Shown piece after piece: positions 20,503-47,340 of a DNA stretch of 64,000 nt. Source of the DNA: Protonemura montana (Eukaryota; Arthropoda; Insecta; Plecoptera; Nemouridae). The position numbers and the translations under genes were made by a program. The stretch's first letter is position 1, and each line of letters starts with the position of its first letter. Under the pieces are notes generated by a model. That model was given only the letters and a program-made list of their open reading frames with translations, was not told the DNA's origin and made no database searches. The DNA lies in the NCBI GenBank assembly GCA_947568835.1, contig OX387612.1, forward strand, positions 10,232,001-10,296,000, given 5' to 3'.

Positions 20503-23416
20503 TTAACCTTATATAAAAGCTTTAAAATGCGATGTTCAACTTTTTAGTTTGTGGGTATGTGGCTGGCTGGGATGTAACCGGCCGCTCTACTGTTTATAGA
20601 AATTGCGAAATGAGACTCAAAACGAACGGAAATGGGCTAGAATTTTTCAGAATTAACTTTTCCATTGGCAGGCGACATTTTCACAGCGATTTAAAATCGT
20701 TTTCATGGTGAAAAGTTGCTAAATATGACGGCAAGATATCTCAGAGCCAGGCGATGCAGCTCGATTTTTAAAACTCTTTTTATACCTAAGTTTTTCTAGC
20801 CTTGAGCTCCACGGTTATTTTTCATGCATTTGTAATAAAGTTGTTGATGTAATTGAGCAAAAACACATTCAATTGCGATCGTTTAACGTGAAAAAGAATT
20901 AATTTTGCTAATAAACTGACAGCTTTGATAAATTGTTTGCTTTTTTGACACCACGGCAAGGTGTACGAAATCGTGAATGTATCTTTTCGGCAGTGCATTC
21001 AGGAAATTCAAACGTCAAATTTAAACGTCAAAGTCAACGTCAATGTCAAATTCAATTTCAAAATCTCCAAAACTGAACGGAAAACGTGTGAAATTGGCTT
21101 CTATTGTTCAAATACAGTTTTACATCTCGCTACGTCTTTTTCACGATAATTTAAAAATGTTTTAGTATAGTAAAGTATCAAAAATATTGTTGGTGTTTGG
21201 CTTGCAAGATACAAAAGAGTCACTTGATTGATCTCGACATTGTATGGTATTGTATATGATTGTAATATACTGCATGGTATTGTATGGTATTTTATTGTTA
21301 TGTATGGTATTCTTTGGTATTGGATGTTTTTGGATGGTTTTTAATATTATTGTTTGATATTTTATGGTATTGAATGAAAATGTACGGTATTCTTTAGTAT
21401 TCGACAGTATTCTATGGTATTCTATGGTATTCTATGGTATTCTATGGTATTCTATGGTGTTCTATGGTGTTCTATGGTGTTCTATGGTGTTCTATGGTAT
21501 TCTATGGTATTCTAGGGTATTCTATGGTATTCTATGATATTCTATGAATTTCTATGGTATTCTATGGTATTGTATGGTATTGTATGGTATTTTATGGTAT
21601 TCTAAGGTATTCTTTGGTATTCTATGGTGTTCTATGGTGTTCTATGGTGTTCTATGGTGTTCTATGGTGTTCTATGGTATTCTATGGTATTCTATAGTAT
21701 TCTATAATATTCTATGAAGTTCTATGGTATTCTATGATATTGTATGGTATTCTATGGTATTCTATGGTATTCTATGGTATTCTATGGTATTCTATAGTAT
21801 TTAATGGTATTCTATGGAGTTATATGGTATTCTTTGATATTTTATGGTATTCTATGGTCTTCTACGGTATTCTATGGTATTCTATGGTATTATTTTGTAT
21901 AATATAATCTTATATGGTATTCTATGGTATTCTATGGTATTCAATGGTATTCTATGGTATTTTATAATATTCTACGGAGTTCTATGGTATTATATGGAGT
22001 TAATGGTATTCTATGGTGTTCAATGGTTTTCTATGGTGTTTAATGGTATTCTATTGTGTTCTATGGTGTTCTATGGTATACTATGGTATTCTATGGTGTT
22101 CTTTGGTGTTCTATGGTGTGCTATGGTATTCTATGGTATTCTATTGTGTTCTATGGTATTCTTTGGTGTTCTATGGTATTCTATGGTATTCAATGGTATT
22201 CTATGGTATTCTATGGTATTCTTTGGTATTTTATAATATTCTATGGTATTCTATGGAGTTCTATGGTATTCTATGATATTGTATGGTATTCTATAGTATC
22301 CTATGGTATTCTTTGGTATTCTATGGAGTTCTATAGTATTCTATTATATACTATGGTATTATATAGAGTTCTTTGGTATTCTTTGATATTCTATAGTATT
22401 CTATGGTGTTCTATGGTATTCAATGGAGTTCTATGGTATTCAATGGAGTTCTATAATATTATATGGAGTTAATGGTATTCTTTGGTGTTCTATGGGGGTC
22501 TTTGGTGTTTTATGTTATTCTTTTGTGTTCTATGGTGTTCTATGGTATTCAATGGTATTCTATGGTGTTCTATGGTGTGCTATGGTTTTCTATGGTATTT
22601 TATTGTGTTCTATGGTATTCTTTGGTGTTCTATGGTATTCTATGGTAATCTATGGAATTCTATGGAATTCTATGGTATTCTATGGTATTTTTATGGTATT
22701 CTATGGTATTCTATGGAGTTCTATGGTATTCTATGATATTTTATGGTATTCTATGGTATTCTATGGTATTCTATGGTATTCTATGGTCTTCTATGGTATT
22801 CTATGGTATTGTTTTGTATTTTATGGTATTCTATGGTATTGTTTGGTATTGTTTGGTTTTGTTTGGAAGTGTATGGTATTAAATGTTTTTGGATGGTATT
22901 CTATGAAATTTTATGGGTTTCTTTGATATAATATGGTTCTCTATGGTATTTGGAGGTATTCGATAGTATTATTTGGTATCCTTTGATGATGTATGGAATG
23001 GTATTTTATTCCATATGTTCCTATGGGTTTCTATATTTTTTTATGGTATTTTTTGGTATCCTCTGGTATTTTATGAGTTTCAATGGATTTCTATGGTATA
23101 AGAAGATACTTTATGGTGTTGTTAGGAATTGAATGGTATTCGATGATACAGTTTGGTATTTTTAGGTATTCTATGGTATTGTATGGTATTGTATGGTTTT
23201 CTATTGTATTGTATGGTATTCTAGGTCCCCTTTGGTATTGTATGATATTGTTTGGTATTTTATGGGTTTGTTTGGTATTTTATGGCATTTTATTGTATTG
23301 TATTGTATTGAATGGAATTTCATGGTTTTCTATCAAAGAAAACTCGAGACACGTTTAAACCAAAATGCCCACTCCCTCAAAATCGTAAGGTGCCGATAGG
23401 CATCGGGTACTGCTAG
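20503..23416 (+). mobile_element. Helitron A, non-autonomous, minisatellite-bearing
   Basis: Left end TTAACCTTATATAAAAGC is shared with the starts of three more units at 23417, 32653 and 43968. The right end has the hairpin TGCC-GATA-GGCA, then CGGGTACTG and CTAG at 23413-23416. The first roughly 480 bp match all units. A short part with GTCAAA-type motifs (21000-21065), shared only with unit B, and a 2.1-kb decamer satellite fill the rest. No Rep or helicase is present, so mobility would depend on C or D. The 3' hairpin plus CTAG and the bases outside the array (A on the left here, T after unit B) are Helitron features. The 5' TT instead of TC is not classical. Confidence 0.8.
21243..23330 (+). 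repeat. decamer minisatellite TCTATGGTAT, about 2.1 kb
   Basis: Tandem 10-bp units with variants (TCTATGGTGT, TCTTTGGTAT, TCTATGGAGT and others). Homogeneous stretches sit inside more diverged ones, and the 3' part (22800-23330) is the most degenerate. Open frames reading YGILWYSMVF are artefacts of the stop-free repeat. The array sits directly upstream of the Helitron terminal segment. Confidence 0.95.
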
Positions 23417-24402
23417 TTAACCTTATATAAAAGCTTTAAATTGTGATGTTCAACTTTTTAGTTTGTGGGTATATGGCTGGGTAGCTGGCTGGGATGTAAC
23501 CGGCTGCTCTACTGTTTATGGAAATTGCGAAATTCGACTCGAAACGTACGGAAATGGGCTAGAATTTTTCAGTGTTAACTTTTACATTGGCAGGCGACAC
23601 TTTCACAGCGATTTAAAATCATTTTCATGGTGAAAAGTTGCTAAATATGACGGCAAGATATCTCAGAGCCAGGCGATGCAACTCGATTTTTAAACTTTTT
23701 TAATACTCAAGTATTTCTAGCCTGGAGCTCCACGGTTATTTTTCATGCATTCGTAATAAAGTTGTTGATGTAATTGAGAGAAAACACATTAAATTACGAT
23801 CGTTTTACGTGAAAAAGAATTATTTTGCTAATAAACTGACAGCTTTGGTCAATTGTTTGCTTTTTGGTCACCACGGCAAGGTGTTCAAAATCGTGAATGT
23901 ATCTTTTCAGCAGTGGATCATCAGGCCAAATTAAACGTCAAAATGGGTTGAAATGTCAAACTATCTACTAAAACCCCTTTGTTTCTGGCGAAAATCGGTC
24001 AAAAACGACAGTAAATGGTTATAATTTGTACATTATTTCAAAGCACTATATGAAACGCGAAATTTTTAGGTGAGTTGATGGGATACGGCGATTTAAACAG
24101 GATTTTAAAAGCAACTTCATATGAAACAGGTAGGTAAAGAAAAAGTTTGACTAAAATACAGACGTGAAATTGTATTTATATTGCACATTTTGTGTTCAAT
24201 TGTGTTTCTTTAATGAGTTTTCAGATATATTTAGTAGTTATTTAACCCGTAATTAATTACCTAACCTCTTAAGACACATTATTATGATCACTGTCCGCAA
24301 TAATTTGACTTCTGACTTCATTCATTTACAGCGTGTAGCATCGACAGCTTCTTATGGCACGTAATTTAAATTGTCGCGCGTGGTGTAAAGTTTGAATTTG
24401 CC

Positions 24403-24410
24403 TGACGTCA
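24403..24410. promoter_or_regulatory. CRE-type palindrome TGACGTCA, Helitron C distal
   Basis: A perfect CREB/ATF-type 8-mer about 680 bp upstream of the Rep/helicase start, followed by ttttacgtag. The same site is kept in Helitron D at 35397. Function inferred from motif only. Confidence 0.45.
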
Positions 24411-24771
24411 TTTTACGTAGCGGGATGTTGGCTTAGCGCTTTTTGATCGGCATCTACGCTCGGCAATTAGTCACACTCCCAAAGCTCGCCAACCGCCATT
24501 TGCTATAGCAGTTAGTATAGCATGAGAGTGCGGATTACCTACACGGCGAAACACTCTTGTGGGGAAGAATTTCGTCGCTATTCAAGGTAATCTTATTTCA
24601 GATTTAATTTGCATGTCACAATATCCACTAATAGTCCACCCCTAATATCATCAAGTAATTCACTTATTTATTGTGATTTTATAGCGTTAAGCTTCTAAAT
24701 TATTATTAAAATTATCGTTCATCATCAAGACTGGAAAGCATACATTTTGCCCGTCTTGTGGATATTTCCAT

Positions 24772-24779
24772 GACGTCAC
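24772..24779. promoter_or_regulatory. CRE-type palindrome TGACGTCA, Helitron C proximal
   Basis: A second perfect TGACGTCA about 310 bp upstream of the ORF, again followed by cttttacgtag. The matching site in Helitron D is at 35765. The pair with shared flanks looks like a duplicated promoter module. Confidence 0.45.
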
Positions 24780-25086
24780 TTTTACGTAGCATGATGCAAT
24801 CGCTCGACGCGATTCTCATCCCCCTCCCCAACCCTCCCATGCCCACCGTTCCAACAATTAGAAGTGTGTTCAACATGGCGTCCAAGCTCGCATTCGAAGC
24901 AAATTAGCATATTTCTTTGTAAAGAAACTGAAGTGATTGTTGTGCATATTAAAGCATGCATTTAGACTGGCATGATATTTGCGTGAGGTCATTTTTACAA
25001 AACATGGCGGTTGGGTCGTGCTCGGCCACGCTCCGCTTCAGCTCGGCGACGCTAGGCACTACTAAAGCCTCGCTTTCTTCACACAG

Positions 25087-28000
25087 ATGCCACCCAAGAA
25101 GCGTGTAAATCTGACGTCTCGGAAGGGCGGGAAAGGTGCAACGGCAAGAGCGGAGAGCGCGGCGGCGAAGAAAAGGGCTGCTGCTGACGAGAGAGCGAGG
25201 ACGAGAGAGACGGCCGAGCACGCCGACCATCAGGCAACTGCTAGCCCGTCGACGTCGACGCTCAACGAGCAGCGTCCTTTTCTTTCCGCTATTCTCGAAG
25301 AAGCCCCGGTGAGTGTCTTAAAGCATGATTCATTATTAGAACAGGCCGCCCCCGCTTCTCTTCCAGCTTTTTATGATCAACCCTCAACAAGCCGCTATCT
25401 GCATTCCTTTTCCGACAATGTGCCGTCTGTACTCCCATCCCTTGACCAGACTCAGATCCTGGAAAATTCAGTTGGCCAGCTCCAAGAGGACAAGAACGTG
25501 CAAGTAGCAGCAAACGAACGAAGTGCCCGACTAGCGGAAAAAGCTAGAAATGCTCGCCAGCGCAGAAAGGCTGAGGATGAGGCCCAGCGTCTTCTGCGTC
25601 TGGCCCAGGTTGCCGAGTTGAAGCGTCGACGACTAGACGAAGCTTCTGAGGGACGACGCCTACAGCTTCTTGCTGAAAAGGCCGAGTCTGAGCGCCTCCG
25701 CTTGGCAAAATGTACGGAAGAACAGCGCTTTCAGCGACTGGCCCTTAAGGCACAGGCAGAGCGTCGCCGCTTGAGTGACGAAGCTGACGAACAGCGCCTT
25801 CAGCGATTGGCCCTTAGGGCAGAGTCAAAGCGTCGCCGCATAAGTGACGAAGCTGACGAACAGCGTATTCAGCGATTGGCCCTTAAGGCAGAGGCAGAGC
25901 GTCATCGCTTGAGTGTAGAAGCCAACGAACAGCGCCTTCAGCGATTGGCCCTTAAGGCAGAGTCAGAGCGTCGCCGCTTGAGTGACGAAGCTGACGAACA
26001 GCGCCTTCAGCGACTAGCCCTTATGGCAGAGTCCAAGCGTCGCCGCTTGAGTGACGAATCTGAGGAACAGCGCCTTCAGCGATTAAGCCAGAAGGCAGTT
26101 CAAACGCAGTCTGAAAGGCAGCATGAGACTCCAGAGGCGCGCGAGAGCCGTATAGTCGCCGCGCGGGAGCAATCTCAGCAGCGTCGAAATGCCGAGACCA
26201 GGGATAAGCTCGCGGCGTTAGAAGTGGAAGTCTCTCAGCGCGCTGAGGAGGAGGCGTCTCAACGCGCCCAAGAGGCTGAACTAGAGCAAAGCCAGCGAGT
26301 CGCGGTCGAGGCTATTGACGTGGCAGATGATCAGTTTGAACCTGATCTTGCTCCAGTGAACCTTCACCCTTTCCACTTGGAGGCTGCACGGCAAGACGTC
26401 ACTGACGTCGCCCTATTTCACTGCGGCAGCATGGACGAAGTATGCAGGGTGTGTGGCGCTCTGTACTTCGCAGGAGAGCGTCCTTCTGACAAAATTTATA
26501 AACTCTGTTGTCACTCGGGCAACGTAATCATTGAGCCTCTCCTCGCGTATCCCGATTTAATGCATGCGTTGCTGACCGGAGATCATTGCGAGTCTAAGAA
26601 CTTCCGCAAAAACATCCGGTCGTACAACAGTTCGCTCTCCTTCGCTTCAGTCGGAGTTAAGACGGACATCCCCCAGGGCCGTGGCACATACTGTTTTCGT
26701 GTCCATGGCAACATCCAGCACAGGATCGGCCATATGGGGCAGGCGGTGCAGAAGCCCCTCTATTCGCACCTGTACTTTCTTGACGCGGAACAAGCGAAGA
26801 CGCATCGAATGGACAGGCGCCAGAATGCTAATCTGCTACCCAACCTGCTTCATGAGCTGGACGCGCTGGTTCGCGAAATAAATCCTTTTGCCCAAGGGCT
26901 TAAAACGCTAGGTCAGGTGGAGGCCGACGACAGGATCCGTGCAGCTGCCGAGGGGCGACCCGAGGTCATGGCCGAACTGCGTTTCGTGGATGACCGACGG
27001 CGGCTGTACGAAAATCCTACGGCCCACGAGGTGGCCGTTGTTTATCAGAGCGTTGACGGTGGCATGCCTCCTCTAGGACGTGATATTCGTATCCATACTC
27101 GTGGCGGATTTATTGAGCAGCTGTCTGTCCTGTCGCCCAACACGGATCCGCTCAGCTACGTGCTGTTGTTCCCGCGTGGAGAACCCGGCTGGCAACGAGG
27201 TATGCCGCACACCAGGCAATCTAAGCACAGCGTCGTCACTCTAATGGAGTTTTATAGCCATCGACTCCACGAGCGTGTCGGCGCCTTTCATCCAGTGCTG
27301 CACGCCGGCAAGCTGACGCAGCAGTTTATGGTAGATGCCTATATCAAGGTTGAGGGCAATCGCCTTGAGTTCGTCATCAGGAACCAGAAAACGCTGCGCG
27401 CCGAACTCTACAGTGGGCTCATGGACCACTTGGCGAACCGTGCTGAGCGGCAGGGCTGCAATGTCGGGAAGATGGTGATTCTGCCTTCCAGTTTCATCGG
27501 AAGCCCCAGGCATTGCCAGCAGCTATATCAAGACGCTATGAGTATCGTCACCAAGTTTGGAAAACCCGATCTTTTCCTTACTATGACGTGTAATCCGAAG
27601 TGGCCTGAGATTCAGACGAGCCTAGCGGCGTACGAAAGGGCAGAAGACCGACCCGATCTCACCGCGCGAGTATTCCAACTTAAACTCAAGGAGCTGATGT
27701 CTGATCTCACCAAGAGGCACGTGCTGGGCGTTCCCATGGCTCACTTCCACGTGATCGAATTCCAAAAACGTGGACTCCCTCACGCTCACATCCTGGTAAT
27801 CCTTCGCGACGAAGACAAGATCCGCACTCCCGAGGAGGTAGACGCACTTATCTGTGCCGAGTTGCCCGATCCGGTGACCGAGGAGAGACTGCACAAGGTC
27901 ATCGTGTCGTCGATGATCCACGGCCCGTGCGGCGCTCGGAACATGTCCTCTGTGTGCATGGAGGACGGAAAGTGTAAGAAGAAGTTCCCCAAGTCGTTCA

Positions 28001-30699
28001 CAGATGTGACTGTGGTCAACGAGGGGGGTTTCACCGTCTATCGCCGTCGAGAGAGCGGGCAGACGCATACCATCTCAGGAAGAGTGGTCGACAACCGAGA
28101 CGTAGTGCCTTACAACAAGTACTTAAGCTCCAAGTTTGACTGCCACCTGAACATCGAGCACTGTGGATCCGCGAAGACGGTCAAGTACCTGTGCAAGTAC
28201 GTGTACAAAGGTCACGACTGTGCCAGGGTCCAGCTCCGCGTCTCTGTCCCCGCGGAGGGCGATCATGAGCCACGTCCAGCGCACGGTGCCCAGCAAGAGT
28301 TGGTGTGGGACGAGGTCTCACAGTTCATCGACTCTCGCTACGTGAGTCCCCAAGAGGCTGCGTGGAGAATTTTCGGATTTGAAATGCACGAAAAGTCGCA
28401 CACTATCATCCGTTTGGCGATCCACCTCGAGGGTGACCACATGGTCACGTTCCGTCCTGGAGACGAGGAAGCCGCAGCAGAACGCGGCAGGGCTGCGCTG
28501 ACTACGCTGACGGCATGGTTTGCGCTGAATAGTAGCAACCCGGCGGCACGGCAGTACAAGTACATCGACATCCCGTACCACTTCCGTTTCGAGGGCAAAG
28601 CGTGGAAGCCACGAAAGCGAGGTGCCGGCTCCATCATCAGCCGAATGTACTCCGTGACGCCCCGGCAGATCGAGCGATACCATCTTCGTCTCCTTTTGCT
28701 ACACGTCGTCGGCGCCACCTCATTCGAGGAAGTGCGCACGTTCCAGGGTAGGGTTTACGCTACCTTCAAGGAAGCTGCCATCGCACGCAACCTGCTAATG
28801 GACGACGACGAGTGGCAGAAATGTCTGCAGGAGGCGGTTGCTATAAAGATGCCAAACGAACTTCGTCAGCTGTTTGCCATCATTTGCGCGTTCTGTCAGC
28901 CTCTTGACCCGCTGTCTCTATGGGAGCGTTTCAAGGGCGATTTCTGCGAAGATTTCGCCCGAGAACACGACCCCATCGAGGCAGAACAGTTGGCCCTGAA
29001 TTCCATCCAGTCCGTCCTTGCCCTACACCGCCTGACCAACGCCGAAATCGGTTTGCCGGCTCCTCGAGTGCCAGTCATCGTTGCTGTCGACGAGCAGTTC
29101 GACCAGACCGCCGAAAGGGAAGAGGCCGAGGAGAACTTGGTGAAGCTCAACGGCAGGCAGCGCGTGGCATTCGACGCGGTGATGGCAGCAATCGACGACC
29201 CGAACGCCGAGCAGAGGTGCTTCTACCTGGACGGCCCGGGCGGCAGCGGGAAGACCTTCCTATACAACACCCTCATCAGCACGCTGCGAGCCCGAGGCGA
29301 GCGAGCCGTGGCCGTCGCGTGGACGGGCATTGCGGCGACGTTACTGAAGGGAGGGAGGACCTGCCACTCGCGATTTCGATTGCCTGTTCCGATTGTGGAA
29401 AACAGCACGTCTGGCGTGAAGCCCAACTCCGCCGAGGGCGCTTCGCTGAGGGCGGCCAAGGTCATCATCTTGGATGAAGGACCCATGGCGCCTCTGCTGG
29501 CCCTGAACGTGATCGAGCGGACGCTAAGAGACGTGACCAACGATGAGCGTCCGTTCGGCGGAAAGGTGATCGTTATCGGCGGGGATTTTAGGCAGTGCCT
29601 CCCAGTCGTTCGAAATGGCAACCGAACGACCATAGTCGAGCAATGCATTAAGCGTGGCGCGCTTTGGTCGTTGTTCCGCACCCTCGAGCTGCGCGCGAAC
29701 ATGCGCGCCAACCCAGGCGAAGTAGAGTTCGTCGAGTGGCTCTTGCGTGTCGGAAACGGCGAGATTTTGAATGACTGCCACCTCCCGGATGACACCATCG
29801 CATTACCTGTCCAATGCGTCGTGGACTGCGTCATTGACGCCGTCTTCGGCACGAGCATTAGTGCTGCCGAGATGACCGTGATGCAAGACCATGCCATCCT
29901 CTGCCCGAAGAACGTGGAGTCTTTGAACATCAATGACAACGTTCTTGAGCGCCTCGAAGGTGACGTGTTCGAATACTGCAGCGCCGACACTGTCGATGTC
30001 AGTGAAGGCGAAGATGGCGACGTTTTGGCTACCGATTATCCCGTAGAATATCTAAATTCATTAACGCCATCCGGGATGCCACCGCACAAGCTTCGTCTGA
30101 AAGTTCATGCAATCGTGATGCTCATGAGGAACGTCAACGTGAGAGCCGGCCTTTGCAATGGGACTCGACTCAGCGTTGTTGCACTCCACGAGCACGTGAT
30201 CGACTGCAGGATCATCGGAGGGCGCTGTGCGGGACGACGCACTTTCCTATGTAGAGTCAACCTAACTCCCTCGGACATTGGCATGCCCTTTACGATGACA
30301 AGGCGCCAGTTTCCGATCCGTCTGGCATTCGCCATGACCATCAATAAAGCCCAGGGTCAATCTTTAAAGAGGGTGGGAATTCATTTAGAAAAACCAGTAT
30401 TCGGACACGGTCAGCTATACGTGGCGCTTTCTCGGGCTCGCTCTTTGGACTCGATCTTCGTGGCAGTCGCCGGTAACGAGGCGCAGGGCAAGTTGATCGT
30501 CTCGAGCAACACCACCTTCACCAAGAACATCGTGTACCAGGAGGTGCTCGAGATTCATGCGCCGAACCACCAGGCAGCGGATCCTTCCTCGCGTAGTGGC
30601 TATCAAGAGGCTGACCAGCAGGCCCTTGAGCAGTCGCTTAGTCAACTCGCTGTATCGGATGCGGATGAAGAAGTTCCAATGGACACCTCCTCCTCCTAA
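25087..30699 (+). CDS. Helitron Rep/helicase protein (copy C), 1870 aa
   Basis: One uninterrupted frame. Order: basic Lys/Arg/Ala-rich N-terminus (1-45); Arg-rich coil of seven 23-residue repeats of the form EQRLQRLALKAE then RRRLSDEAD (about 166-326), like the STPR of silkworm FMBP-1; zinc-finger-like C453-x2-C456...CCH (474-476); helitron-like N-domain; Rep endonuclease with HFHVIEFQKRGLPHAH (886-901, HUH at 899-901) and the two-tyrosine motif KYLCKY (Y1034, Y1038); Pif1-type helicase with GPGGSGKT (1383-1390), ILDEG (D1463, E1464), GGDFRQCLP, TINKAQGQS (about 1750) and VALSRA (about 1779). Rep should nick and rejoin DNA through tyrosines, and the helicase should unwind it, in rolling-circle transposition. 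No apurinic-type endonuclease or OTU domain, so Helitron rather than Helentron type. The ATG follows tttcttcacacag, a possible acceptor of a 5' UTR intron with a donor near 24590. Confidence 0.95.
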   Translation: MPPKKRVNLTSRKGGKGATARAESAAAKKRAAADERARTRETAEHADHQATASPSTSTLNEQRPFLSAILEEAPVSVLKHDSLLEQAAPASLPAFYDQPSTSRYLHSFSDNVPSVLPSLDQTQILENSVGQLQEDKNVQVAANERSARLAEKARNARQRRKAEDEAQRLLRLAQVAELKRRRLDEASEGRRLQLLAEKAESERLRLAKCTEEQRFQRLALKAQAERRRLSDEADEQRLQRLALRAESKRRRISDEADEQRIQRLALKAEAERHRLSVEANEQRLQRLALKAESERRRLSDEADEQRLQRLALMAESKRRRLSDESEEQRLQRLSQKAVQTQSERQHETPEARESRIVAAREQSQQRRNAETRDKLAALEVEVSQRAEEEASQRAQEAELEQSQRVAVEAIDVADDQFEPDLAPVNLHPFHLEAARQDVTDVALFHCGSMDEVCRVCGALYFAGERPSDKIYKLCCHSGNVIIEPLLAYPDLMHALLTGDHCESKNFRKNIRSYNSSLSFASVGVKTDIPQGRGTYCFRVHGNIQHRIGHMGQAVQKPLYSHLYFLDAEQAKTHRMDRRQNANLLPNLLHELDALVREINPFAQGLKTLGQVEADDRIRAAAEGRPEVMAELRFVDDRRRLYENPTAHEVAVVYQSVDGGMPPLGRDIRIHTRGGFIEQLSVLSPNTDPLSYVLLFPRGEPGWQRGMPHTRQSKHSVVTLMEFYSHRLHERVGAFHPVLHAGKLTQQFMVDAYIKVEGNRLEFVIRNQKTLRAELYSGLMDHLANRAERQGCNVGKMVILPSSFIGSPRHCQQLYQDAMSIVTKFGKPDLFLTMTCNPKWPEIQTSLAAYERAEDRPDLTARVFQLKLKELMSDLTKRHVLGVPMAHFHVIEFQKRGLPHAHILVILRDEDKIRTPEEVDALICAELPDPVTEERLHKVIVSSMIHGPCGARNMSSVCMEDGKCKKKFPKSFTDVTVVNEGGFTVYRRRESGQTHTISGRVVDNRDVVPYNKYLSSKFDCHLNIEHCGSAKTVKYLCKYVYKGHDCARVQLRVSVPAEGDHEPRPAHGAQQELVWDEVSQFIDSRYVSPQEAAWRIFGFEMHEKSHTIIRLAIHLEGDHMVTFRPGDEEAAAERGRAALTTLTAWFALNSSNPAARQYKYIDIPYHFRFEGKAWKPRKRGAGSIISRMYSVTPRQIERYHLRLLLLHVVGATSFEEVRTFQGRVYATFKEAAIARNLLMDDDEWQKCLQEAVAIKMPNELRQLFAIICAFCQPLDPLSLWERFKGDFCEDFAREHDPIEAEQLALNSIQSVLALHRLTNAEIGLPAPRVPVIVAVDEQFDQTAEREEAEENLVKLNGRQRVAFDAVMAAIDDPNAEQRCFYLDGPGGSGKTFLYNTLISTLRARGERAVAVAWTGIAATLLKGGRTCHSRFRLPVPIVENSTSGVKPNSAEGASLRAAKVIILDEGPMAPLLALNVIERTLRDVTNDERPFGGKVIVIGGDFRQCLPVVRNGNRTTIVEQCIKRGALWSLFRTLELRANMRANPGEVEFVEWLLRVGNGEILNDCHLPDDTIALPVQCVVDCVIDAVFGTSISAAEMTVMQDHAILCPKNVESLNINDNVLERLEGDVFEYCSADTVDVSEGEDGDVLATDYPVEYLNSLTPSGMPPHKLRLKVHAIVMLMRNVNVRAGLCNGTRLSVVALHEHVIDCRIIGGRCAGRRTFLCRVNLTPSDIGMPFTMTRRQFPIRLAFAMTINKAQGQSLKRVGIHLEKPVFGHGQLYVALSRARSLDSIFVAVAGNEAQGKLIVSSNTTFTKNIVYQEVLEIHAPNHQAADPSSRSGYQEADQQALEQSLSQLAVSDADEEVPMDTSSS

Positions 30700-31004
30700 A
30701 TCCTATCATTGTTCTATCCCTTACATTTGCAATAGCGGTAACATTTCCTAGATAAATTTAAATTCAGTAAGGCTAGGTAGGGCAGACCAGGAACCGTGAC
30801 TAGCACGGCAGGTAGCAACCCAATTCCCATATATTTCACCATGCTGACACGCTTTTCTGCTGCAGGTATAAAGCACCGGACGCCGCATAGCCCTTTAACT
30901 TCACGACCATTGCGCTCGCATGTGGACACTCTAACGGAACTGCTCCTCCCAGAGCTAGACAATTATGCATGTAAATTAATTGATAGATTATATTGTACAT
31001 ACAT

Positions 31005-31490
31005 TTAGTAAAGTAGTTACTTCTAACTAATAGTATTAGAAATGCAGCCTGCTGTTTTCCATCTGCATGTCATGCATGTTCCAAAAAAAATAAAAATAAA
31101 AATAAAAAACATATCGTAGATTTATTAAAGTAGTTACTAAGTAGTAAGTAGTAGTAGTTGGTAAGCAAGTAGTTTATAGTTATGCAACCTGCTGTTTTCC
31201 ATCTGCATGTCATGCATGTTCAAAAAAACAAAAAAACAAAAAAAAAATCATAGATTTAGTAAAGTAGTTACTAAGTAGTAAGTAGTAGTAGTTGGTAAGT
31301 AAGTAGTTAATAGTTATGCAACCTGCTTTTTTCCATCTGCATGTCATGCATGTTCAAAAAAACAAAAAAACCAAAAAAAAATATCATAGATTTAGTAAAG
31401 TAGCTACTAAGTAGTAAGTAGTAGTAGTTGGTAAGTAAGGAGTTAATAGTTATGCAACCTGCTGTTTTCTATCTGCATGTTTGCAATTTT
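31005..31490 (+). repeat. tandem repeat in the Helitron C 3' region, about 117-136 bp unit
   Basis: About 3.5 units, each with tagttactaagtagtaag, atgcaacctgctgttttcc, catgtcatgcatgttc and an A-rich linker of variable length. Unit D has an extra copy (42065-42670). Non-coding. Confidence 0.9.
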
Positions 31491-32502
31491 TTTAAGGTCA
31501 CAATCTTACTTTCGTGTCGGTCTTTTTACTGCATGTTTCTCTTTTCTTGATTCCATCTTGGAATGTCAAACCAACTAACCACCAAGCATGATAGCATTGC
31601 ACCAGTCTAAAAACTGAACAATGCATCCTACCTATCTGACACAGTTGAATATTGCATGAATCCTTGCATGTCCGCACATCAGAGATTCCTGTTGCTTGCA
31701 ACGGGCTGCACAATCTTTGATAGTGTAAGGCAGAGGCGATGTAGTGTGTGACGATCGCCATGCTGCCGGGGCGGGATGGGGGCCCCGGCATAACAATTAT
31801 TTTTAAAATTCTCTCACTTAACAGCTTGAATACATTTAGAAACTTTTTATTTCTCCAAGAATAGTGCCTCTCTCTTGCCGTCTTTTTTTATTTTGTTTTA
31901 GACCCCCCCTCCCCCTGCCAATCGTAGAGAAGGAACTTCTTCATGGCACCATTGCGGAGATTACTTTCAATTACGAATGAACAGTGGCGCTACTGCGACA
32001 TGGCAGGTCTGCATTGACTGTTGCTTTCAAATGGTCAAAGTTTTCAACGCAAATCGTCGTTACCATGTGAATATTTCTTATATTTGTAAGAATGATAATA
32101 ATATTGGCAAATAAAAATTACAATAATTAATAGGTACATTTTTTTTTGTTTAATCTTCAAAAAAAAAACCTTCGTCACTGAAACCAAACCAAAAATATTT
32201 GTAATGATTCCTTTCTGTCCAAAAAGCACACCAAATGGTTGTGTCCCCTTATAAGCAATGCTGCTGGTTAGCCATCATCGTTGAAGGTACTGGCGGAAAT
32301 CAGGTATAGTATGGTATATCAAGTCGTAAGGGCATAATACTTTGTTTTCTTGACATTTTCTCAGTACTTTATTTTGTTGTCCCATAAAAGTTTCTTAAAT
32401 GTATGCGTAGAGGCTACATTAAGTGTAAAGTCTCAGTTCGGTCCCAGGGCTTAGGGACTAGATTTTGGCCTAGGCCCATATATTTTTGTCATGATCTATC
32501 CT

Positions 32503-35404: not shown

Positions 35405-35764
35405 TTTTACGTAGCGGGATGTTGGCTTAGCGCTTTTTGATCGGCATCTACGCTCGGCAATTAGTCACACTCCCAAAGCCCGCCAGCCGCCATTTGCTAT
35501 AGCAGTTAGTATAGCATGAGAGTGCGGATTACCTACACGGCGAAACACTCTTGTGGGGAAGAATTCCGTCGCTATTCAAGGTAATTTCATTTCATATTTA
35601 ATTTGCATGTCACAATATCCAGTAATAGTCAACCCCTAATATCATCAAGTGATTCAATTATTTATAGTGATATTATAGCGTTTAGCTTCTAAATTATTAT
35701 TAAAATTATCGTTCATCATCAAGACTGGAAAGCATACATTTTGCCCGTCTTGTGGATATTTCCA

Positions 35765-35772
35765 TGACGTCA
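35765..35772. promoter_or_regulatory. CRE-type palindrome TGACGTCA, Helitron D proximal
   Basis: Same site and flank as 24772 in Helitron C, about 310 bp before the ORF. Confidence 0.45.
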
Positions 35773-36077
35773 CTTTTACGTAACATGATGCAATCGCTCG
35801 ACGCGATTCTCATCCCCCTCCCCAACCCTCCCATTCCCACCGTTCCAACAATTAGAAGTGTGTTCAACATGGCGTCCAAGCTCGCATTCGAAGCAAATTA
35901 GCATATTTCTTTGTAAAGAAACTAAAGTGATTGTTGTGCATATTAAAGCATGCATTTAGACTGGCATGATATTTGGGTGAGGTCAATTTTGCGAAACATG
36001 GCGGTTGGTTCGTCCTTAGCCACGCTCCGCTTCAGTTTGGCGACGCTAGGCACTAAAACCTCGCTTTCTTCACACAG

Positions 36078-39000: not shown

Positions 39001-41759
39001 ACATGTCCTCTGTGTGCATGGAGGACGGAAAGTGTAAGAAGAAGTTCCCCAAGTCGTTCACAGATGTGACTGTGGTCAACGAGGGGGGTTTCACCGTCTA
39101 TCGCTGTCGAGAGAGCGGGCAGACGCATACCATCTCAGGAAGAGTGGTCGACAACCGAGACGTAGTGCCTTACAACAAGTACTTAAGCTCCAAGTTTGAC
39201 TGCCACCTGAACATCGAGCACTGTGGATCCGCGAAGACGGTCAAGTACCTGTGCAAGTACGTGTACAAAGGTCACGACTGTGCCAGGGTCCAGCTCCGCG
39301 TCTCTGTCCCCGCGGAGGGCGATCATGAGCCACGTCCAGCGCACGGTGCCCAGCAAGAGTTGGTGTGGGACGAGGTCTCACAGTTCATCGACTCTCGCTA
39401 CGTGAGTCCCCAAGAGGCTGCGTGGAGAATTTTCGGATTTGAAATGCACGAAAAGTCGCACACTATCATCCGTTTGGCGATCCACCTCGAGGGTGACCAC
39501 ATGGTCACGTTCCGTCCTGGAGACGAGGAAGCCGCAGCAGAACGCGGCAGGGCTGCGCTGACTACGCTGACGGCATGGTTTGCGCTGAATAGTAGCAACC
39601 CGGCGGCACGGCAGTACAAGTACATCGACATCCCGTACCACTTCCGTTTCGAGGGCAAAGCGTGGAAGCCACGAAAGCGAGGTGCCGGCTCCATCATCAG
39701 CCGAATGTACTCCGTGACGCCCCGGCAGATCGAGCGATACCATCTTCGTCTCCTTTTGCTACACGTCGCCGGCGCCACCTCATTCGAGGACGTGCGCACG
39801 TTCCAGGGTAGGGTTTACGCTACCTTCAAGGAAGCTGCCATCGCACGCAACCTGCTAATGGACGACGACGAGTGGCAGAAATGTCTGCAGGAGGCGGTTG
39901 CTATAAAGATGCCAAACGAACTTCGTCAGCTGTTTGCTATCATTTGCGCGTTCTGTCAGCCTCTTGACCCGCTGTCTCTGTGGGAGCGTTTCAAGGACGA
40001 TTTCTGCGAAGATTTCGCCCGAGAACACGACCCCATCGAGGCAGAACAGTTGGCCCTGAATTCCATCCAGTCCGTCCTTGCCCTACACCGCCTGACCAAC
40101 GCCGAAATCGGTTTGCCGGCGCCTCGAGTGCCAGTCATCGTTGCTGTCGACGAGCAGTTCGACCAGACCGCCGAAAGGGAAGAGGCCGAGGAGAACTTGG
40201 TGAAGCTCAACGGCAGGCAGCGCGTGGCATTCGACGCGGTGATGGCAGCAATCGACGACCCGAACGCCGAGCAGAGGTGCTTCTACCTGGACGGCCCGGG
40301 CGGCAGCGGGAAGACCTTCCTATACAACACCCTCATCAGCACGCTGCGAGCCCGAGGCGAGCGAGCCGTGGCCGTCGCGTGGACGGGCATTGCGGCGACG
40401 TTACTGAAGGGAGGGAGGACCTGCCACTCGCGATTTCGATTGCCTGTTCCGATTGTGGAAAACAGCACGTCTGGCGTGAAGCCCAACTCCGCCGAGGGCG
40501 CTTCGCTGAGGGCGGCCAAGGTCATCATCTTGGATGAAGGACCCATGGCGCCTCTGCTGGCCCTGAACGTGATCGAGCGGACGCTAAGAGACGTGACCAA
40601 CGATGAGCGTCCGTTCGGCGGAAAGGTGATCGTTATCGGCGGGGATTTTAGGCAGTGCCTCCCAGTCGTTCGAAATGGCAACCGAACGACCATTGTCGAG
40701 CAATGCATTAAGCGTGGCGCGCTTTGGTCGTTGTTCCGCACCCTCGAGCTGCGCGCGAACATGCGCGCCAACCCAGGCGAAGTAGAGTTCGTCGAGTGGC
40801 TCTTGCGTGTCGGAAACGGCGAGATTTTGAATGACTGCCACCTCCCGGATGACACCATCGCATTACCTGTCCAATGCGTCGTGGACTGCGTCATTGACGC
40901 CGTCTTCGGCACGAGCATTAGTGCTGCCGAGATGGCCGTGATGCAAGACCATGCCATCCTCTGCCCGAAGAACGTGGAGTCTTTGAACATCAATGACAAC
41001 GTTCTTGAGCGCCTCGAAGGTGACGTGTTCGAATACTGCAGCGCCGACACTGTCGATGTCAGTGAAGGCGAAGATGGCGACGTTTTGGCTACCGATTATC
41101 CCGTAGAATATCTAAATTCATTAACGCCATCCGGGATGCCACCGCACAAGCTTCGTCTGAAAGTTCATGCAATCGTGATGCTCATGAGGAACGTCAACGT
41201 GAGAGCCGGCCTATGCAATGGGACTCGACTAAGCGTTGTAGCACTCCACGAGCACGTGATCGACTGCAGGATCATCGGAGGGCGCTGTGCGGGACGACGC
41301 ACTTTCCTATGTAGAGTCAATTTAACTCCCTCGGACATTGGCATGCCCTTTACGATGACAAGGCGCCAGTTTCCGATCCGTCTGGCATTCGCCATGACCA
41401 TCAATAAAGCCCAGGGGCAATCTTTAAAGAGGGTGGGAATTCATTTAGAAAAACCAGTATTCGGACACGGTCAGCTATACGTGGCGCTTTCTCGGGCTCG
41501 CTCTTTGGACTCGATCTTCGTGGCAGTCGCCGGTAACGAGGCGCAGGGCAAGTTGATCGTTTTGAGCAACACCACCTTCACCAAGAACATCGTGTACCAG
41601 GAGGTGCTCGAGATTCATGCGCCGGACCACCAGGCAGCGGATCCTTCCTCGCGTAGTGGCTATCAAGAGGCTGACCAGCAGGCCCTTGAGCAGTCTCTTA
41701 GTCAACTCGCTGTATCGGATGCGAATGAAGAAGTTCCAATGGACGCCTCCTCCTCCTAA
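36078..41759 (+). CDS. Helitron Rep/helicase protein (copy D), 1893 aa
   Basis: Second intact copy with the same domain order as the protein at 25087: basic N-terminus, 23-residue repeats, zinc-finger-like CRVC...CCH, HUH motif GLPHAH, two-tyrosine KYLCKY, and helicase motifs GPGGSGKT, ILDEG, GGDFRQ, NKAQGQS and VALSRA. All catalytic residues are kept. It is longer by exactly 23 residues because it has eight 23-residue repeats rather than seven (plus the same degenerate last unit). Outside the repeats I count only about 15 residue differences over some 1400 positions, mostly conservative, alongside silent third-base changes. Both copies therefore look recently active or selected. It starts at the ATG after tttcttcacacag, as in copy C. 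Confidence 0.95.
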   Translation: MPPKKRVNLTSRKGGKGATARAESAAAKKRAAADERARTRETAEHADHQATASQSTSTLDEQRPFLSAILEEAPVSVLKHDSLLEQAAPASLPAFYDQPSTSRYMHSFPDNVPSVLPSLDQTQILENSVGQLQEDKNVQVAANERSARLAEKARNARQRRKAEDEAQRLLRLAQVAESKRRRLDEASEGRRLQLLAEKAESERLRLTKCTEEQRLQRLALKAEAERRRLSDEADQQRLQRLALKAELKRCRLSDETDEQRLQRLALKAESKRHRLSHEADEQRLQRLALKAEAERHRLSDEADEQRLQRLALKAESERRRLSDEADEQRRQRLALKAEAERHRLSAESDDQRLQRLSQKAVQTQSERQHETPEARESRLVAARERSQQRRNAETRDKLAAFEVEVSQRAEEEASQRAQEAELEQSQRVAVEAIDVADDQFEPDLAPVNLHPFHLEAARQDVADVALFHCGSMDEVCRVCGALYFAGERPSDKIYKLCCHSGNVILEPLLAYPDLMHALLTGDHCESKNFRKNIRSYNSSLSFASVGVKTDIPQGRGTYCFRVHGNIQHRIGHMGQAVQKPLYSHLYFLDAEQAKMHRMDRRQNANLLPNLLHELDALVREINPFAQGLKTLGQVEADDRIRAAAEGRPEVMAELRFVDDRRRLYENPTAHEVAVVYQSVDGGMPPLGRDIRIHTRGGFIEQLSVLSPNTDPLSYVLFFPRGEPGWQRGMPHTRQSKHSVVTLMEFYSHRLHERVGAFYPVLHAGKLTQQFMVDAYIKVEGNRLEFVIRNQKTLRAELYSGLMDHLANRAERQGCNVGKMVILPSSFIGSPRHCQQLYQDAMSIVTKFGKPDLFLTMTCNPKWPEIQTSLAAYERAEDRPDLTARVFQLKLKELMFDLTKRHVLGVPMAHFHVIEFQKRGLPHAHILVILRDEDKIRTPEEVDALICAELPDPVTEERLHKVIVSSMIHGPCGARNMSSVCMEDGKCKKKFPKSFTDVTVVNEGGFTVYRCRESGQTHTISGRVVDNRDVVPYNKYLSSKFDCHLNIEHCGSAKTVKYLCKYVYKGHDCARVQLRVSVPAEGDHEPRPAHGAQQELVWDEVSQFIDSRYVSPQEAAWRIFGFEMHEKSHTIIRLAIHLEGDHMVTFRPGDEEAAAERGRAALTTLTAWFALNSSNPAARQYKYIDIPYHFRFEGKAWKPRKRGAGSIISRMYSVTPRQIERYHLRLLLLHVAGATSFEDVRTFQGRVYATFKEAAIARNLLMDDDEWQKCLQEAVAIKMPNELRQLFAIICAFCQPLDPLSLWERFKDDFCEDFAREHDPIEAEQLALNSIQSVLALHRLTNAEIGLPAPRVPVIVAVDEQFDQTAEREEAEENLVKLNGRQRVAFDAVMAAIDDPNAEQRCFYLDGPGGSGKTFLYNTLISTLRARGERAVAVAWTGIAATLLKGGRTCHSRFRLPVPIVENSTSGVKPNSAEGASLRAAKVIILDEGPMAPLLALNVIERTLRDVTNDERPFGGKVIVIGGDFRQCLPVVRNGNRTTIVEQCIKRGALWSLFRTLELRANMRANPGEVEFVEWLLRVGNGEILNDCHLPDDTIALPVQCVVDCVIDAVFGTSISAAEMAVMQDHAILCPKNVESLNINDNVLERLEGDVFEYCSADTVDVSEGEDGDVLATDYPVEYLNSLTPSGMPPHKLRLKVHAIVMLMRNVNVRAGLCNGTRLSVVALHEHVIDCRIIGGRCAGRRTFLCRVNLTPSDIGMPFTMTRRQFPIRLAFAMTINKAQGQSLKRVGIHLEKPVFGHGQLYVALSRARSLDSIFVAVAGNEAQGKLIVLSNTTFTKNIVYQEVLEIHAPDHQAADPSSRSGYQEADQQALEQSLSQLAVSDANEEVPMDASSS

Positions 41760-42064
41760 ATCCTATCATTGTACTATCCCTTACATTTGCAATAGCGGTA
41801 ACATTTCCTAGATAAATTTAAATTCAGTAAGGCTAGGTAGGGCAGACCAGGAACCGTGACTAGCACGGCAGGTAGCAACCCAATTCCCATATATTTCACC
41901 ATGCTGACACGCTTTTCTGCTGCAGGTATAAAGCACCGGACGCCGCATAGCCCTTTAACTTCACGACCATTGCGCTCGCATGTGGACACTCTAACGGAAC
42001 TGCTCCTCCCAGAGCTAGACAATTATGCATGTAAATTAATTGATAGATTATATTGTACATACAT

Positions 42065-42670
42065 TTAGTAAAGTAGTTACTTCTAACTAATAGTATTAGA
42101 AATGCAGCCTGCTGTTTTCCATCTGCATGTCATGCATGTTCCAAAAAAATAAATAAATAAATAAAAAAACATATCGTACATTTAGTAAAGTAGTTACTAA
42201 GTAGTAAGTAGTAGTAGTTGGTAAGCAAGTAGTTGATAGTTATGCAACCTGCTGTTTTCCATCTGCATGTCATGCATGTTCAAAAAAACAAAAAAAAAAA
42301 ATATCATAGATTTAGTAAAGTAGTTACTAAGTAGTAAGTAGTAGTAGTTGGTAAGCAAGTAGTTAATAGTTATGCAACCTGCTGTTTTCCATCTGCATGT
42401 CATGCATGTTCAAAAAAACAAAAAAAAAAAAAAAAATCATAGATTTAGTAAAGTAGTTACTAAGTAGTAAGTAGTAGTAGTTGGTTAGTAAGTAGTTAAT
42501 AGTTATGCAACCTGCTGTTTTCTATCTGCATGTCATGCATGTTCAAAAAAACAAAAAAACAAAAAAAAAATCATAGATTTAGTAAAGTAGTTACTAAGTA
42601 GTAAGTAGTAGTAGTTGGTAAGTAAGTAGTTAATAGTTATGCAACCTGCTGTTTTCTATCTGCATGTTTG
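42065..42670 (+). repeat. tandem repeat in the Helitron D 3' region
   Basis: About 4.5 units of the 117-136-bp repeat described at 31005, one more than in Helitron C. Linkers of A and CAAAA differ in length between units. Confidence 0.9.
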
Positions 42671-42734
42671 CAATTTTTTTAAGGTCACAATCTTACTTTC
42701 GTGTCGGTCTTTTTACTGCATGTTTCTCTTTTCT

Positions 42735-42975
42735 TGATTCCATCTTGGAATGCCAAACCAACTAACAACCAAGCATGATAGCATTGCATCAGTCTAAAAA
42801 CTGAACAATGCATCCTACCTATCCGACACAGTTGATCCTTGCATGAATCCTTGCATCTCTCTTCTTGATTCTATCTTGGAATGCCAAACCAACTAACCAC
42901 CAAGCATGATAGCATTGCACCAGTCTAAAAACTGAACAATGCATCCTACCTATCCGACACAGTTGATCCTTGCAT
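42735..42975 (+). repeat. 120-bp tandem duplication in the Helitron D 3' region
   Basis: The block gattccatcttggaatgcc ... gatccttgcatgaatccttg is present twice (about 42737-42858 and 42868-42978). It is single in Helitron C (about 31550-31670). Confidence 0.8.
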
Positions 42976-43967
42976 GAATCCTTGCATGTCCGCACATCAG
43001 AGATTCCTGTTGCTTGCAACGGGCTGCACAATCTTTGATAGTGTAAGGCAGAGGCGATGTAGTGTGCGACGATCGCCATGCTGCCGGGGCGGGATGGGGG
43101 CCCCGGCATAACAATTATTTTTAAAATTCTCTCAATTAACAGCTTGAATACATTTAGAAACTTTTTATTTCTCCAAGAATGGTGCCTCTCTCTTGCCGTC
43201 TTTTTTTATTTTGTTTTAGACAGCCCCTCCCCCTGCCAATCGCGGAGAAGGAACTTCTTCATGGCACCATTGCGGAGATTACTTTCAATTACGGATGAAC
43301 AGTGGCGATACTGCGACATGGCTGGTCTGAATTTACTGTTGCTTTCAAATGGTCAAAGTTTTCAACGCAAATCGTCGTAAACATGTGAATATTTCTTATA
43401 TTTGTAAGAATGATCATAATATTGGCAAATAAAAATTACAATAATTAATAGGTACATTTTTTTTTGTTTAATCTTCAAAAAAAAACCTTCGTCACTGAAA
43501 CCAAACCAAAAATATTTGTAATGATTCCTTTCTGTCCAAAAAGCACACCAAATGGTTGTGTCCTTATAAGCAATGCTGCTGGTTAGCCATCATCGTTGAA
43601 GGTACTGGCGGAAATCAGGCATAGTATGGTATATCAAGTCGTAAGGGCATAATACTTTGTTTTCTCGCCATTTTTTCAGTACTTTATTTTGTTGTCCCAT
43701 AAAAGTTTTTTAAATGAATGCGTAGAGGCTACATTAAGTGTTAAGTCTCAGTTCGGTCCCAGGGCTTAGGGACTAAATTTTGGCCTAGGCCCATATATTT
43801 TTGTCATGATCTATCCTATCGGCATATGCCCTATGGGCATAGGGTACTAGAAAAACAGTAGTGAGCTATTTGTAATTGTTAATCCAAGTTCAAAGACAAT
43901 ACTAATACTAAAATAAAACCACTCGGGATAAGAACAACAGGTGCCGTTAGGCATCGGGTACTGCTAG

Positions 43968-46900
43968 TTAACCTTATATAAAAGCTTTAAAATTGTGATG
44001 TTCAACTTTTTAGTTTGTGGGTAGCTGGCTGGGTGGGTGGCTGGGATGTAACCGGCCGCTCTACTGGTTATGGAAATTGCGAAATGAGACTCAAAACGTA
44101 CGGAAATGGGCTAGAATTTTTCAGAATTAACTTTTACATTGGCGTGCGACATTTTCACAGCGATTAAAAATCGTTTTCATGGTGAAAAGTTGCTAAATAT
44201 GACGGCAAGATATCTCAGAGCCAGGCGATGCAGCTCGATTTTATAACTATTTTAATACTCAAGTTTTTCTAGCCTCGAGCTTTGCGGTGATTTTTCATGC
44301 ATTCGTAATAAAGTTGTTGATGTAATTGAGCGAAAACACATTCAATTGCGATCGTTTAACGTGAAAAAGAATTAATTTTGCTAATAAACTGACAGCTTTG
44401 ATCAATTGTTTGCTTTTTTGACACCACTTCAAGGTGTACGAAATCGTGAATGTATCTTTTCGGCAGTGCATTCAGGAAATTCAAACGTCAAATTTAAACG
44501 TCAAAGTCAACGTCAATGTCAAATTCAATTTCAAAATCTCCAAAACTGAACGGAAAAACGTGTGAAATTGGCTTCTATTGTTCAAATACAGTTTTACATC
44601 CTGCTACGTCTTTTTCACGATGATTTAAAAGTGTTTTAGTAAAGTAAAGTATCAAAAATATTGTTGGTGTTCGGCTAGCAAGATACAAAAGAGTCACTTG
44701 ATTGATCTCGACATTGTATGGTATTGTATATGATTGTATTATACTGCATGGTGTTGTATGGTATTTTATTGTAATGTATGGTATTCTATGGTATTCTATG
44801 GTATTGGATGTTATTGGATGGTTTTGAATATTATTGTTTGATATTGTATGGTATTGAATGAAATTGTATGGCATTCTATAGTATACGACAGTATTCTATG
44901 GAATTCTATGGTATTCTATGGTATTCTATGGTATTCTATGGTATTCTATAGTATTCAATTGTATTCTATGGTATTCTATGGTATTCTATGGTATTCTATG
45001 GTATTCTATGGAGTTCTATGGTATTCTATGGTAATCTATGGTATTCTATGGTATTCAATGGTATTCTATGGTATTCTATGGTATTCTATGGTATTCTATG
45101 GTTCTCTATTATAAACTTTGGTATGCTTTGGTATTCTATTGTATTCTATGGTATTTTATGGTATTATATGGTATTCTACGGTATTCTATGGAATTCTATG
45201 TTATTCTATCATAAACTATGGTATTCTATGATATTCTATGATATTCTATGTTATTCTATTATAAACTTCGGAATTCTATGGTATTTTATGGTATTCTATG
45301 GTATTCTATGATATTCTATTGTATTATATGGTATTCTATGGTATTCTATGGTATTCTATGGTATTCTATGATATTCTATGGTATTTTATGATATTCTATG
45401 GTATTATTTGGTATTTTATGGTATTTTATGGTATTCTATGGTATTCTATGGTATTTTTTGGTATTCTATGGTATTCTATGGTATTCTATGATATTCTATG
45501 GTATTATTTTGTATTCTATGGTATTCTATGGTATTCTATGGTATTCTATGGTGTTCTATGGTGTTCTATGGTGTTCTATGGTGTTCTATGGTGTTTTATG
45601 GTATTCTATGGTATTCTATGGTATTCTATGGTATTCTATAATATGCTATGAAGTTCTATAGTATTCTATGATATTGTATGGTATTTTATGGTATTCTATG
45701 GTATTATATGGTATTCTATGGTATTTAATGGTATTCTATGGAGTTATATGGTATTCTATGATATTGTATGGTATTCTATAGTCTTCTACGGTATTCTATG
45801 GTATTCTATGGTATTCTTTTGTATAATATAATATTATATGGTATTCTATGGTATTCTATGGTATTTTATAATATTTTACGGAGTTCTATGGTATTATATG
45901 GAGTTGATGGTATTCTATGGTGTTCTATGGTGTGCTATGGTGTTTTATGGTATTTTATTGTGTTCTATGGTGTTCTATGGTATACTATGGTGTTCTATGG
46001 TGTTCTATGGTGTTCTTGGGTGTGCTATGGTATTCTATGGTATTCTATTGTGTTCTATGGTATTCTTTGGTGTTCTTTGGTATTCTATGGTATTCTATGG
46101 TATTCTATTGTATTCTTTGGTATCCTATGGTATTCTATGGAATTTTATAATATTCTATGGTATTCTATGGAGTTCTATGGTATTCTATGATATTGTATGG
46201 TATTCTATAGTATCCTATGGTATTCTTTGGTATTCTATGGAGTTCTATAGTATTCTTTTATAAACTATGGTATTCTATAGAGTTTTTTGGTATTCTATGA
46301 TAATCTATGGTATTCTATGGTCTTTTATGGTGTTCTATGGTATTCTTTTGTGTTCTATGGTATTCTATGGCATTCAATGGTATTCTATGATATTCTATGG
46401 TATTCTATGGAGTTCTATGGAATTATTTGGTATTCTATGGTATTCTATGGTATTCTTTGGTATCCTTTGGTATTCTTTTGGTATACTATGGTATTCTTTA
46501 GTATTCTATGGTATTCTTTGGTATTCTTTGGTATTCTTTGGTATTCTATGGTATTCTTTGATATTGTATGGTATTCTATGGTATTCTATGGAATTCTATG
46601 ATATTGTATGGCATTGTATGGTATTCTATGGTTTTTTATGGTATTCTTTGACAGTGTAGGGTATTGTATGGTATTCTATGGAATTCTATGATATTGCATG
46701 GTATTCTATGGTATTGTTTGGTATTCTATGGTATTGTATGGTATTGTTTGGTTTTGTTTGGAAGTGTATGGTATTAAATGTTTTTGGATGGTATTCTATG
46801 AAATTTTATGGGTTTCTTTGATATAATATGGTTCTCTATGGTATTTGGAGGTATTCGATAGTATTATTTGGTATCCTATGATGTTGTATGGAATGGTTTG

Positions 46901-47340
46901 GTATTCTATATGTTCCTATGGGTTTTTATATTTTTTATGGTATTTTTTGGTATCCTCTGGTATTTTATGAGTTTCAATGGATTTCTATGGTATAAGAAGA
47001 TACTTAATGGTGTTGTTATGTATTGAATGGTATTCGATGATACAGTTTGGTATTTTTAGGTATTCTATGGTATTGTATGGTATTGTATGGTATTCTATTG
47101 TATTGTATGGTATTCTAGGTCCCCTTTGGTATTGTATGATATTGTTTGGTATTTTATGGGTTTGTTTGGTATTTTATGGCATTTTATGGTATTGTATTGT
47201 ATGGAATGGAATTTTATGGTTTTCTTAGGGTTTCTTTGGATTCGAATTGTTTTCTTTCAAAGAAAACTCGAGACACGTTTAAACTAAAATGCCCACTCCC
47301 TCAAAATCGTAAGGTGCCGTTAGGCATCGGGTACTGCTAG
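43968..47340 (+). mobile_element. Helitron B, non-autonomous, minisatellite-bearing
   Basis: Starts TTAACC directly after the CTAG of unit D. It shares with unit A the 5' segment, the GTCAAA-motif segment (about 44470-44530), the decamer satellite and the final tail (actcgagacacgtttaaac, then the hairpin and CTAG at 47337-47340). It is the last unit of the array; the flank starts TATATT. The satellite is about 2.5 kb here against 2.1 kb in A. No coding capacity. Confidence 0.8.
44712..47230 (+). repeat. decamer minisatellite TCTATGGTAT, about 2.5 kb
   Basis: Same unit and overall order as 21243-23330. The degenerate 3' part (46700-47230) aligns closely with 22840-23320, while the homogeneous middle differs in copy number. 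This shows expansion or contraction after the two elements separated. Confidence 0.95.

Follow-up and report, generated by a model that had tools for sequence, protein, structure and literature searches.

The window examined here, a stretch of 64,000 nucleotides from Protonemura montana (C15:10232001-10296000, in a genome of 258 Mb and 34 contigs), holds four Helitrons joined exactly head to tail, and this stack is one of many, drawn from a recently active family of the Helitron superfamily whose members have common 5' and 3' tips. Precise ends, a fixed orientation, mixed lineages and recent movement at the level of the unit are shown by the comparisons reported below. The units fall into three classes: autonomous elements of 9-12 kb, non-autonomous elements of about 3 kb with a minisatellite, and short non-autonomous elements of about 1 kb. 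We assign a probability of roughly 0.55 to the reading that Helitrons of this family repeatedly inserted at the termini of resident copies in one orientation, with some multi-unit copying and recombination in addition.

The four-unit array and its genes

The array runs in the order A-C-D-B on the plus strand. Unit A (20503-23416; 2914 bp) is a non-autonomous Helitron, units C (23417-32652; 9236 bp) and D (32653-43967; 11315 bp) are autonomous, and unit B (43968-47340; 3373 bp) is a non-autonomous minisatellite Helitron. No spacer separates them. CTAG/TTAACC is read at all three joints, and an exact search found the junction string CTAGTTAACC exactly three times in the window, at 23413, 32649 and 43964, corresponding to the junctions A-C (23413-23422), C-D (32649-32658) and D-B (43964-43973); the D-B pair is also present on contig C7. 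An earlier, sequence-only reading of this DNA had described an exact head-to-tail array of four units, and its coordinates and joints were reproduced to the base; the host A at 20502 and the host T at 47341 likewise agree with the outer flanks that it gave, A on the left and T on the right. Its picture of two intact Rep/helicase units between two minisatellite units also holds, with frames of 1870 and 1893 aa in C and D and 10-bp minisatellites in A (about 21274-23333; 206 copies) and B (248 copies). A 10/15-bp minisatellite lies within D (33980-34397, plus strand), and 10-bp-phased minisatellites occur in several unit types. Folding placed a 6-bp hairpin at the 3' terminus of B (47313-47328), with the same stem drawn for D; the stem was drawn in all three 3' tips folded, and it is no more stable than in shuffled sequence, 11-33 of 200 shuffles folding equally well. 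When the two flanks were joined as a 122-nt representation of the empty site, a genome search recovered only the left and right flank of the window itself, and no empty site.

Other repeats surround the array. Satellites of 91 bp resembling the 3' part of 5S rRNA occur in both orientations at 20102-20471, 49864-50324, 52921-53377 and 59164-59282, the last of which is also a complete 5S-like match (RF00001, 46 bits). Near the right edge of the array a tRNA-like match (RF00005, 33.7 bits) lies on the minus strand at 47468-47540, and letters like it recur inverted within 600 bp in a palindrome-like arrangement. A 33-bp minisatellite of about 77 copies occupies 267-2786, where both strands carry open frames of 315-372 aa that overlap, and tandem arrays with 114-bp and 47-bp units were observed at 51571-52243 and 62664-63464, respectively.

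The Rep/helicase frames lie on the plus strand at 25087-30699 in C and 36078-41759 in D. Both proteins match PF14214 and PF05970 within a single chain, and the HAH motif and Walker A are present. The Helitron_like_N (HUH Rep) domain covers residues 722-904 in C (27250-27798) and 745-927 in D (38310-38858), and the PIF1 helicase domain covers residues 1353-1561 (29143-29769) and 1376-1584 (40203-40829), respectively. Residues 326-1822 of the C protein align to Helraiser chain 7lcc with 1279 bits, YLCKY standing opposite YLFKY. Three features place the element in the Helitron superfamily: a protein that combines Rep (HUH) and a Pif1-type helicase, a 3' CTAG (CTRR) terminus, and flanking bases that indicate entry between A and T with no duplication of the target. 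We file it under the superfamily and not under the TC-starting subtype because the units begin with TTAACC in place of the canonical 5' TC, and A/T targeting leaves the unit edge ambiguous by one base. An alignment of 1870 codons shows 97 nt differences between the C and D genes and a dN/dS of 0.23 (0.16 from codon 701 onward), values as would be expected for genes under selection.

Both proteins also contain STPR repeats (PF21107), which in C match residues 260-332 (25864-26082, plus strand) and come from 69-bp tandem repeats; the repeat tracts lie at 25720-26098 and 36711-37142. Fibroin-modulator-binding protein-1, an STPR protein of solved structure, was among the structure-sequence matches of the C protein. 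Many Rep frames in the genome are 1831, 1854, 1877, 1900, 1923 or 1946 aa long, and this ladder of 23-aa steps is expected from gain and loss of the 69-bp STPR repeat. A 91-aa N-terminal fragment of Helraiser matched no Pfam family at E 0.1, and we found no paper in the open-licence literature that joins 'Helitron' and 'STPR'. A part for the STPR repeats in target choice is speculation.

Junctions and orientation across the genome

With up to two mismatches allowed, the junction 36-mer matched 662 sites genome-wide (387 and 275), and a reversed control pattern of the junction matched none. Chance alone would give about 0.04 exact abutments in the whole genome, by a rough estimate that places 969 insertions at random AT dinucleotides and takes the AT frequency from the window. 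Head-to-head and tail-to-tail junctions, each sought in the genome with up to two mismatches, were both absent. The tandem joints observed are far above chance, and within this genome a stack of four units is unremarkable; the sequence-only reading had called a mixed, symmetric array unusual, an impression that does not survive the 662 junctions.

The exact 18-nt 5' end has 969 copies in the genome, and since just 296 of them are preceded by A and the other 673 are not, roughly two thirds of 5' ends lie inside stacks, the 5'-end count and the junction count differing in stringency. Among 58 distinct 5' segments read on contigs C1 and C2, 30 are preceded by A, 28 by CTAG and none by anything else. 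The exact 3' 18-mer GGCATCGGGTACTGCTAG has 295 copies, followed by T in 294: TT comes next in 269 cases, which cover both junctions and host TT, T and a different base in 25, and a base other than T in one. A wider 3'-end pattern yielded six ends with a base other than T next. When starts were grouped by spacing, and not by reading every junction, the 58 on C1 formed 24 groups (seven single, nine of two, one of three, five of four and two of five), so that 17 of the 24 hold at least two units. On C2, among the starts listed and with the start at 27203381 left out, 41 starts gave 18 groups, 11 of them single and one of nine, and three starts were without a group.

At one C2 locus (L035, C2:3103205), 22 bp of a Helitron 5' tip are followed at once by a Helitron 3' end in the opposite orientation, such as would arise if one element had entered another's tip backwards. 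Apart from the Helitrons, a STING search of the genome yielded one exon whose sole solved-structure match at the cut-off was 7mwy, and a weak one (E 3e-5); Nematostella STING, present in the PDB, was absent from the matches, and Nematostella was rejected as the source.

Partners of the units and proposed insertion at resident ends

Units C and D are 98.1% identical over 5761 bp of their bodies and 90.3% over the first 803 bp, and the first 480 bp of D show 94.7% identity to B and 91.2% to C. Among the dispersed stacks, 5' segments from the same stack diverge by a median of 5.0% and a mean of 5.1% (74 pairs), and those from different stacks by 5.7% and 7.7% (1579 pairs); pairs less than 1% apart number 3 of 74 and 71 of 1579, respectively. 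Near-identical neighbours were seen in stack L064 (units 5-6, 99.9%; units 7-8, 99.4%) and stack L066 (units 1 and 2, 99.7%). Apart from these exceptions, neighbours are seldom near-identical, which does not support a homotypic concatemer formed by read-through. Rolling-circle read-through, which the sequence-only reading had mentioned as a way in which tandem Helitrons can arise, is not supported for a single element: the stacks have members mostly of different lineages, and the first 800 bp of C and D are about 9-10% apart, their bodies being 98% identical. Nearest-relative distance, our proxy for age, did not differ between first and inner units (p 0.89) and does not reveal the growing side.

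The same units recur beside different partners. We compared the first 520 bp of D with eight other loci, picked from the 40 scored of 1137 first-look candidates for the C-D junction, whose units were read at their ends only. Seven of the eight have at most three mismatches; at the remaining one (C2:28257k, L077) there are 22, confined to the first 280 bp with bases 281-520 free of them, and we take this mosaic copy of D to show recombination between units. The left neighbours of D-like units are of at least four kinds: the autonomous type in the window, on C4, at C8:341k and at C2:28257k, the minisatellite type on C12, at C8:532k and at C2:28281k, and different again on C7 and on C33. Seven of these loci were also read at the 3' end, which matches that of D at six (1-3 mismatches in 500); the C33 unit has 14 mismatches there, its D 5' end being joined to another 3' end. 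On the right, the neighbour is that of the window on C7 only (100% over 400 bp; 86-98% at the others), where the copy of B following a D-like unit agrees with that of the window in 3370 of 3373 aligned bases and carries one 160-bp insert. Unit C has a twin on C4, equal in length (9236 bp by junction coordinates) and placed after a D-like unit, which differs by one mismatch in the first 1100 bp and none in the last 1129 bp, the ends alone having been read. The alternative raised by the sequence-only reading, that later copies targeted the junctions, is in our judgement probably right, D-like units elsewhere adjoining other partners; as to its suggestion that the whole array entered a single A/T site, joint entry of several units is plausible for D-B only.

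Rep/helicase recognises and nicks Helitron ends for transposition. According to the mechanism we propose, the ends of resident copies would serve it as targets as well. A new copy would enter between the host A and the first T of the resident, a canonical A/T site that would be re-formed at each round, and the resident 3' end or an existing junction could serve as alternative entry points. Each entry would yield CTAG/TTAACC and leave the outer A and T as before. The orientation would be fixed because, we propose, a single strand of the resident end is nicked. An inner 3' end might sometimes be missed as a stop, in which case two units would travel together (D-B), and exchange between units would change some 5' segments. 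Joints in one orientation favour end targeting, since random A/T targeting of ends should give both orientations. Stepwise growth is our inference, each locus having been observed at a single stage; sections of PMC2267711 supply a precedent for stepwise arrival in maize lines that carry none, one or both of two abutting Helitrons, and discuss A/T and G/T target alternatives for two maize Helitrons. Some observations stand against end targeting: some copies lie within minisatellites of other units and not at ends (L050-L052), within-stack pairs are closer by mean (5.1 vs 7.7%) and not by median (5.0 vs 5.7%), and Helraiser in HeLa cells gave 701 retranspositions with no clustering around donors in the portion of PMC4778049 that describes them.

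Units might instead be assembled before insertion, Rep joining a 3' end to the 5' end of another unit or running past terminators inside a mixed stack formed earlier, so that a multi-unit circle would enter one A/T site at once. Such a route would account for D-B in the window and on C7 with different left neighbours, the two-unit repeat in L064, and the junction that L064 and L023 have alike on both sides (99.5/99.0%), and for Helraiser about 11.7% of events involve read-through beyond the 3' end (PMC4778049, in part). We nevertheless consider it rather unlikely, given the 31 distinct junctions on C1 and C2, a set not chosen by D: of their 465 pairs, none is alike on both sides at 99% or more, and 24 are alike on one side only (right unit 13, left unit 11). 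Nor was the C-D pair of the window found repeated, the upstream units at other C-D-like junctions being 96-99% like the C 3' end and the D units about 99.5-99.8% like D. A wider set of 54 junctions, biased towards D, contained three pairs alike on both sides at more than 98.5%, namely L050/L052, L064/L023 and D-B. The occurrence of D-B in both the window and C7 suggests that two-unit movement also occurs, and this pair, the near-identical neighbours in L064 and L066 and the L064/L023 junction point to multi-unit copying or duplication. An en bloc origin of C-D was rejected separately on the 40 of 1137 candidates scored: full-length matches reach 99%, yet C itself has no close copy among the units upstream.

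Homologous recombination could also enlarge stacks, by joined-end double-stranded circles or unequal exchange between stacks that would add units via the common 5' (about 520 bp) and 3' sequence. The mosaic copy of D at C2:28257k, the C33 unit, the fall in C/D identity from the body to the first 803 bp and the near-identical neighbours in L064 and L066 are all consistent with this. However, a crossover within the 5' homology would in most cases exchange the tip, so the intact tips at seven of the eight other D loci, which keep the D 5' sequence from base 1 beside at least four kinds of left neighbour, count against it, and we regard it as improbable.

Known tandem Helitrons and the long stacks

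Tandem or abutting Helitrons have already been published, as passages of PMC2267711, PMC5876387, PMC4778049, PMC5148889, PMC12628747 and PMC12477314 attest. Abutting head-to-tail Helitrons of bat and maize (PMC2267711 in part, and bat work as cited there) have, like ours, an exact CTAG-to-5' joint, with G/T replacing A/T; the maize pair consists of two different elements and was read there as consecutive insertions. These are single cases as presented in that source, whereas the present genome has junctions by the hundred, units of several classes together and stacks that can be very long. Helraiser/Helibat resembles our elements in about 1500 residues of Rep/helicase (PDB 7lcc, by sequence), in its CTAG 3' end and in its A/T flanks, and circles with precisely joined ends and bat copies directly beside one another are described for it (parts of PMC4778049 and PMC5876387). 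Our elements differ from Helraiser in starting with TT and not TC, in carrying extra STPR repeats N-terminal of the aligned part, and in that stacking is the rule. Plant centromeric arrays, amplified by rolling circle, are also tandem Helitrons, and are described as truncated units with numerous 5' ends for a single 3' end (Xiong et al. 2016, as summarised in excerpts of PMC12628747 and PMC5148889); in our case both termini are present in every unit of the window and in those read in L064-L067, and the genes of two units are intact. Maize Helitrons prefer sites near other Helitrons (Yang and Bennetzen 2009, via a passage of PMC12477314), and the likeness is an attraction to existing Helitrons, although the preference as cited there is for nearness only and here we find exact, oriented abutment. 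In the open-licence literature searched, we found no genome with most copies of a family in exact mixed stacks of autonomous and non-autonomous units.

The origin of tandem Helitrons, by replication past the terminator or by repeated insertion, has so far been argued from single cases. Hundreds of junctions, recent copies, strict orientation and partner swapping at the level of the unit make the models comparable by counting. If self-targeting is true, it would be an unusual target choice for a Helitron, in which host genes would be spared new insertions, and it would show how a transposon can give rise to satellite-like blocks of intact autonomous units.

Long stacks are on contigs C7 (925 kb) and C8 (890 kb), which hold at least 45 and at least 33 Rep matches, respectively, with 150 of 207 candidates scored. 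On each contig the Rep matches form three strand blocks (+, -, +), and exact junctions on C7 extend, among the matches listed, from 18.7 to 868 kb; we claim no unbroken stack on either. Neither contig matches A, B, C or D in its first 1.5 kb. The right ends of both contigs and the last bases of the chromosome-sized C5 fall within Helitron units, and C7, C8 and the contig of the window have round lengths, features that mis-joining of a repeat family during assembly could produce. We hold such an artefact to be very improbable, because 662 precise junctions in one orientation would not come from mis-joins, and stacks of units of about 1 kb are dispersed inside chromosomes with differing host A-flanks. 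Returning to insertion at resident ends, a tentative extension, possible though somewhat doubtful, is that the family is self-homing, with a strand-specific preference for its own termini, and would extend satellite-like blocks with genes to nearly a megabase by end-to-end addition of whole units, possibly guided by the STPR DNA-binding repeats and the 10-bp-phased minisatellites.

Loci L050 (C7:339655-342674) and L052 (C8:276032-279051) have a common junction whose sides are 100 and 99.5% identical, and past a 3' end both have the same sequence, which resembles inverted minisatellite. The two contigs could be duplicates or alleles.
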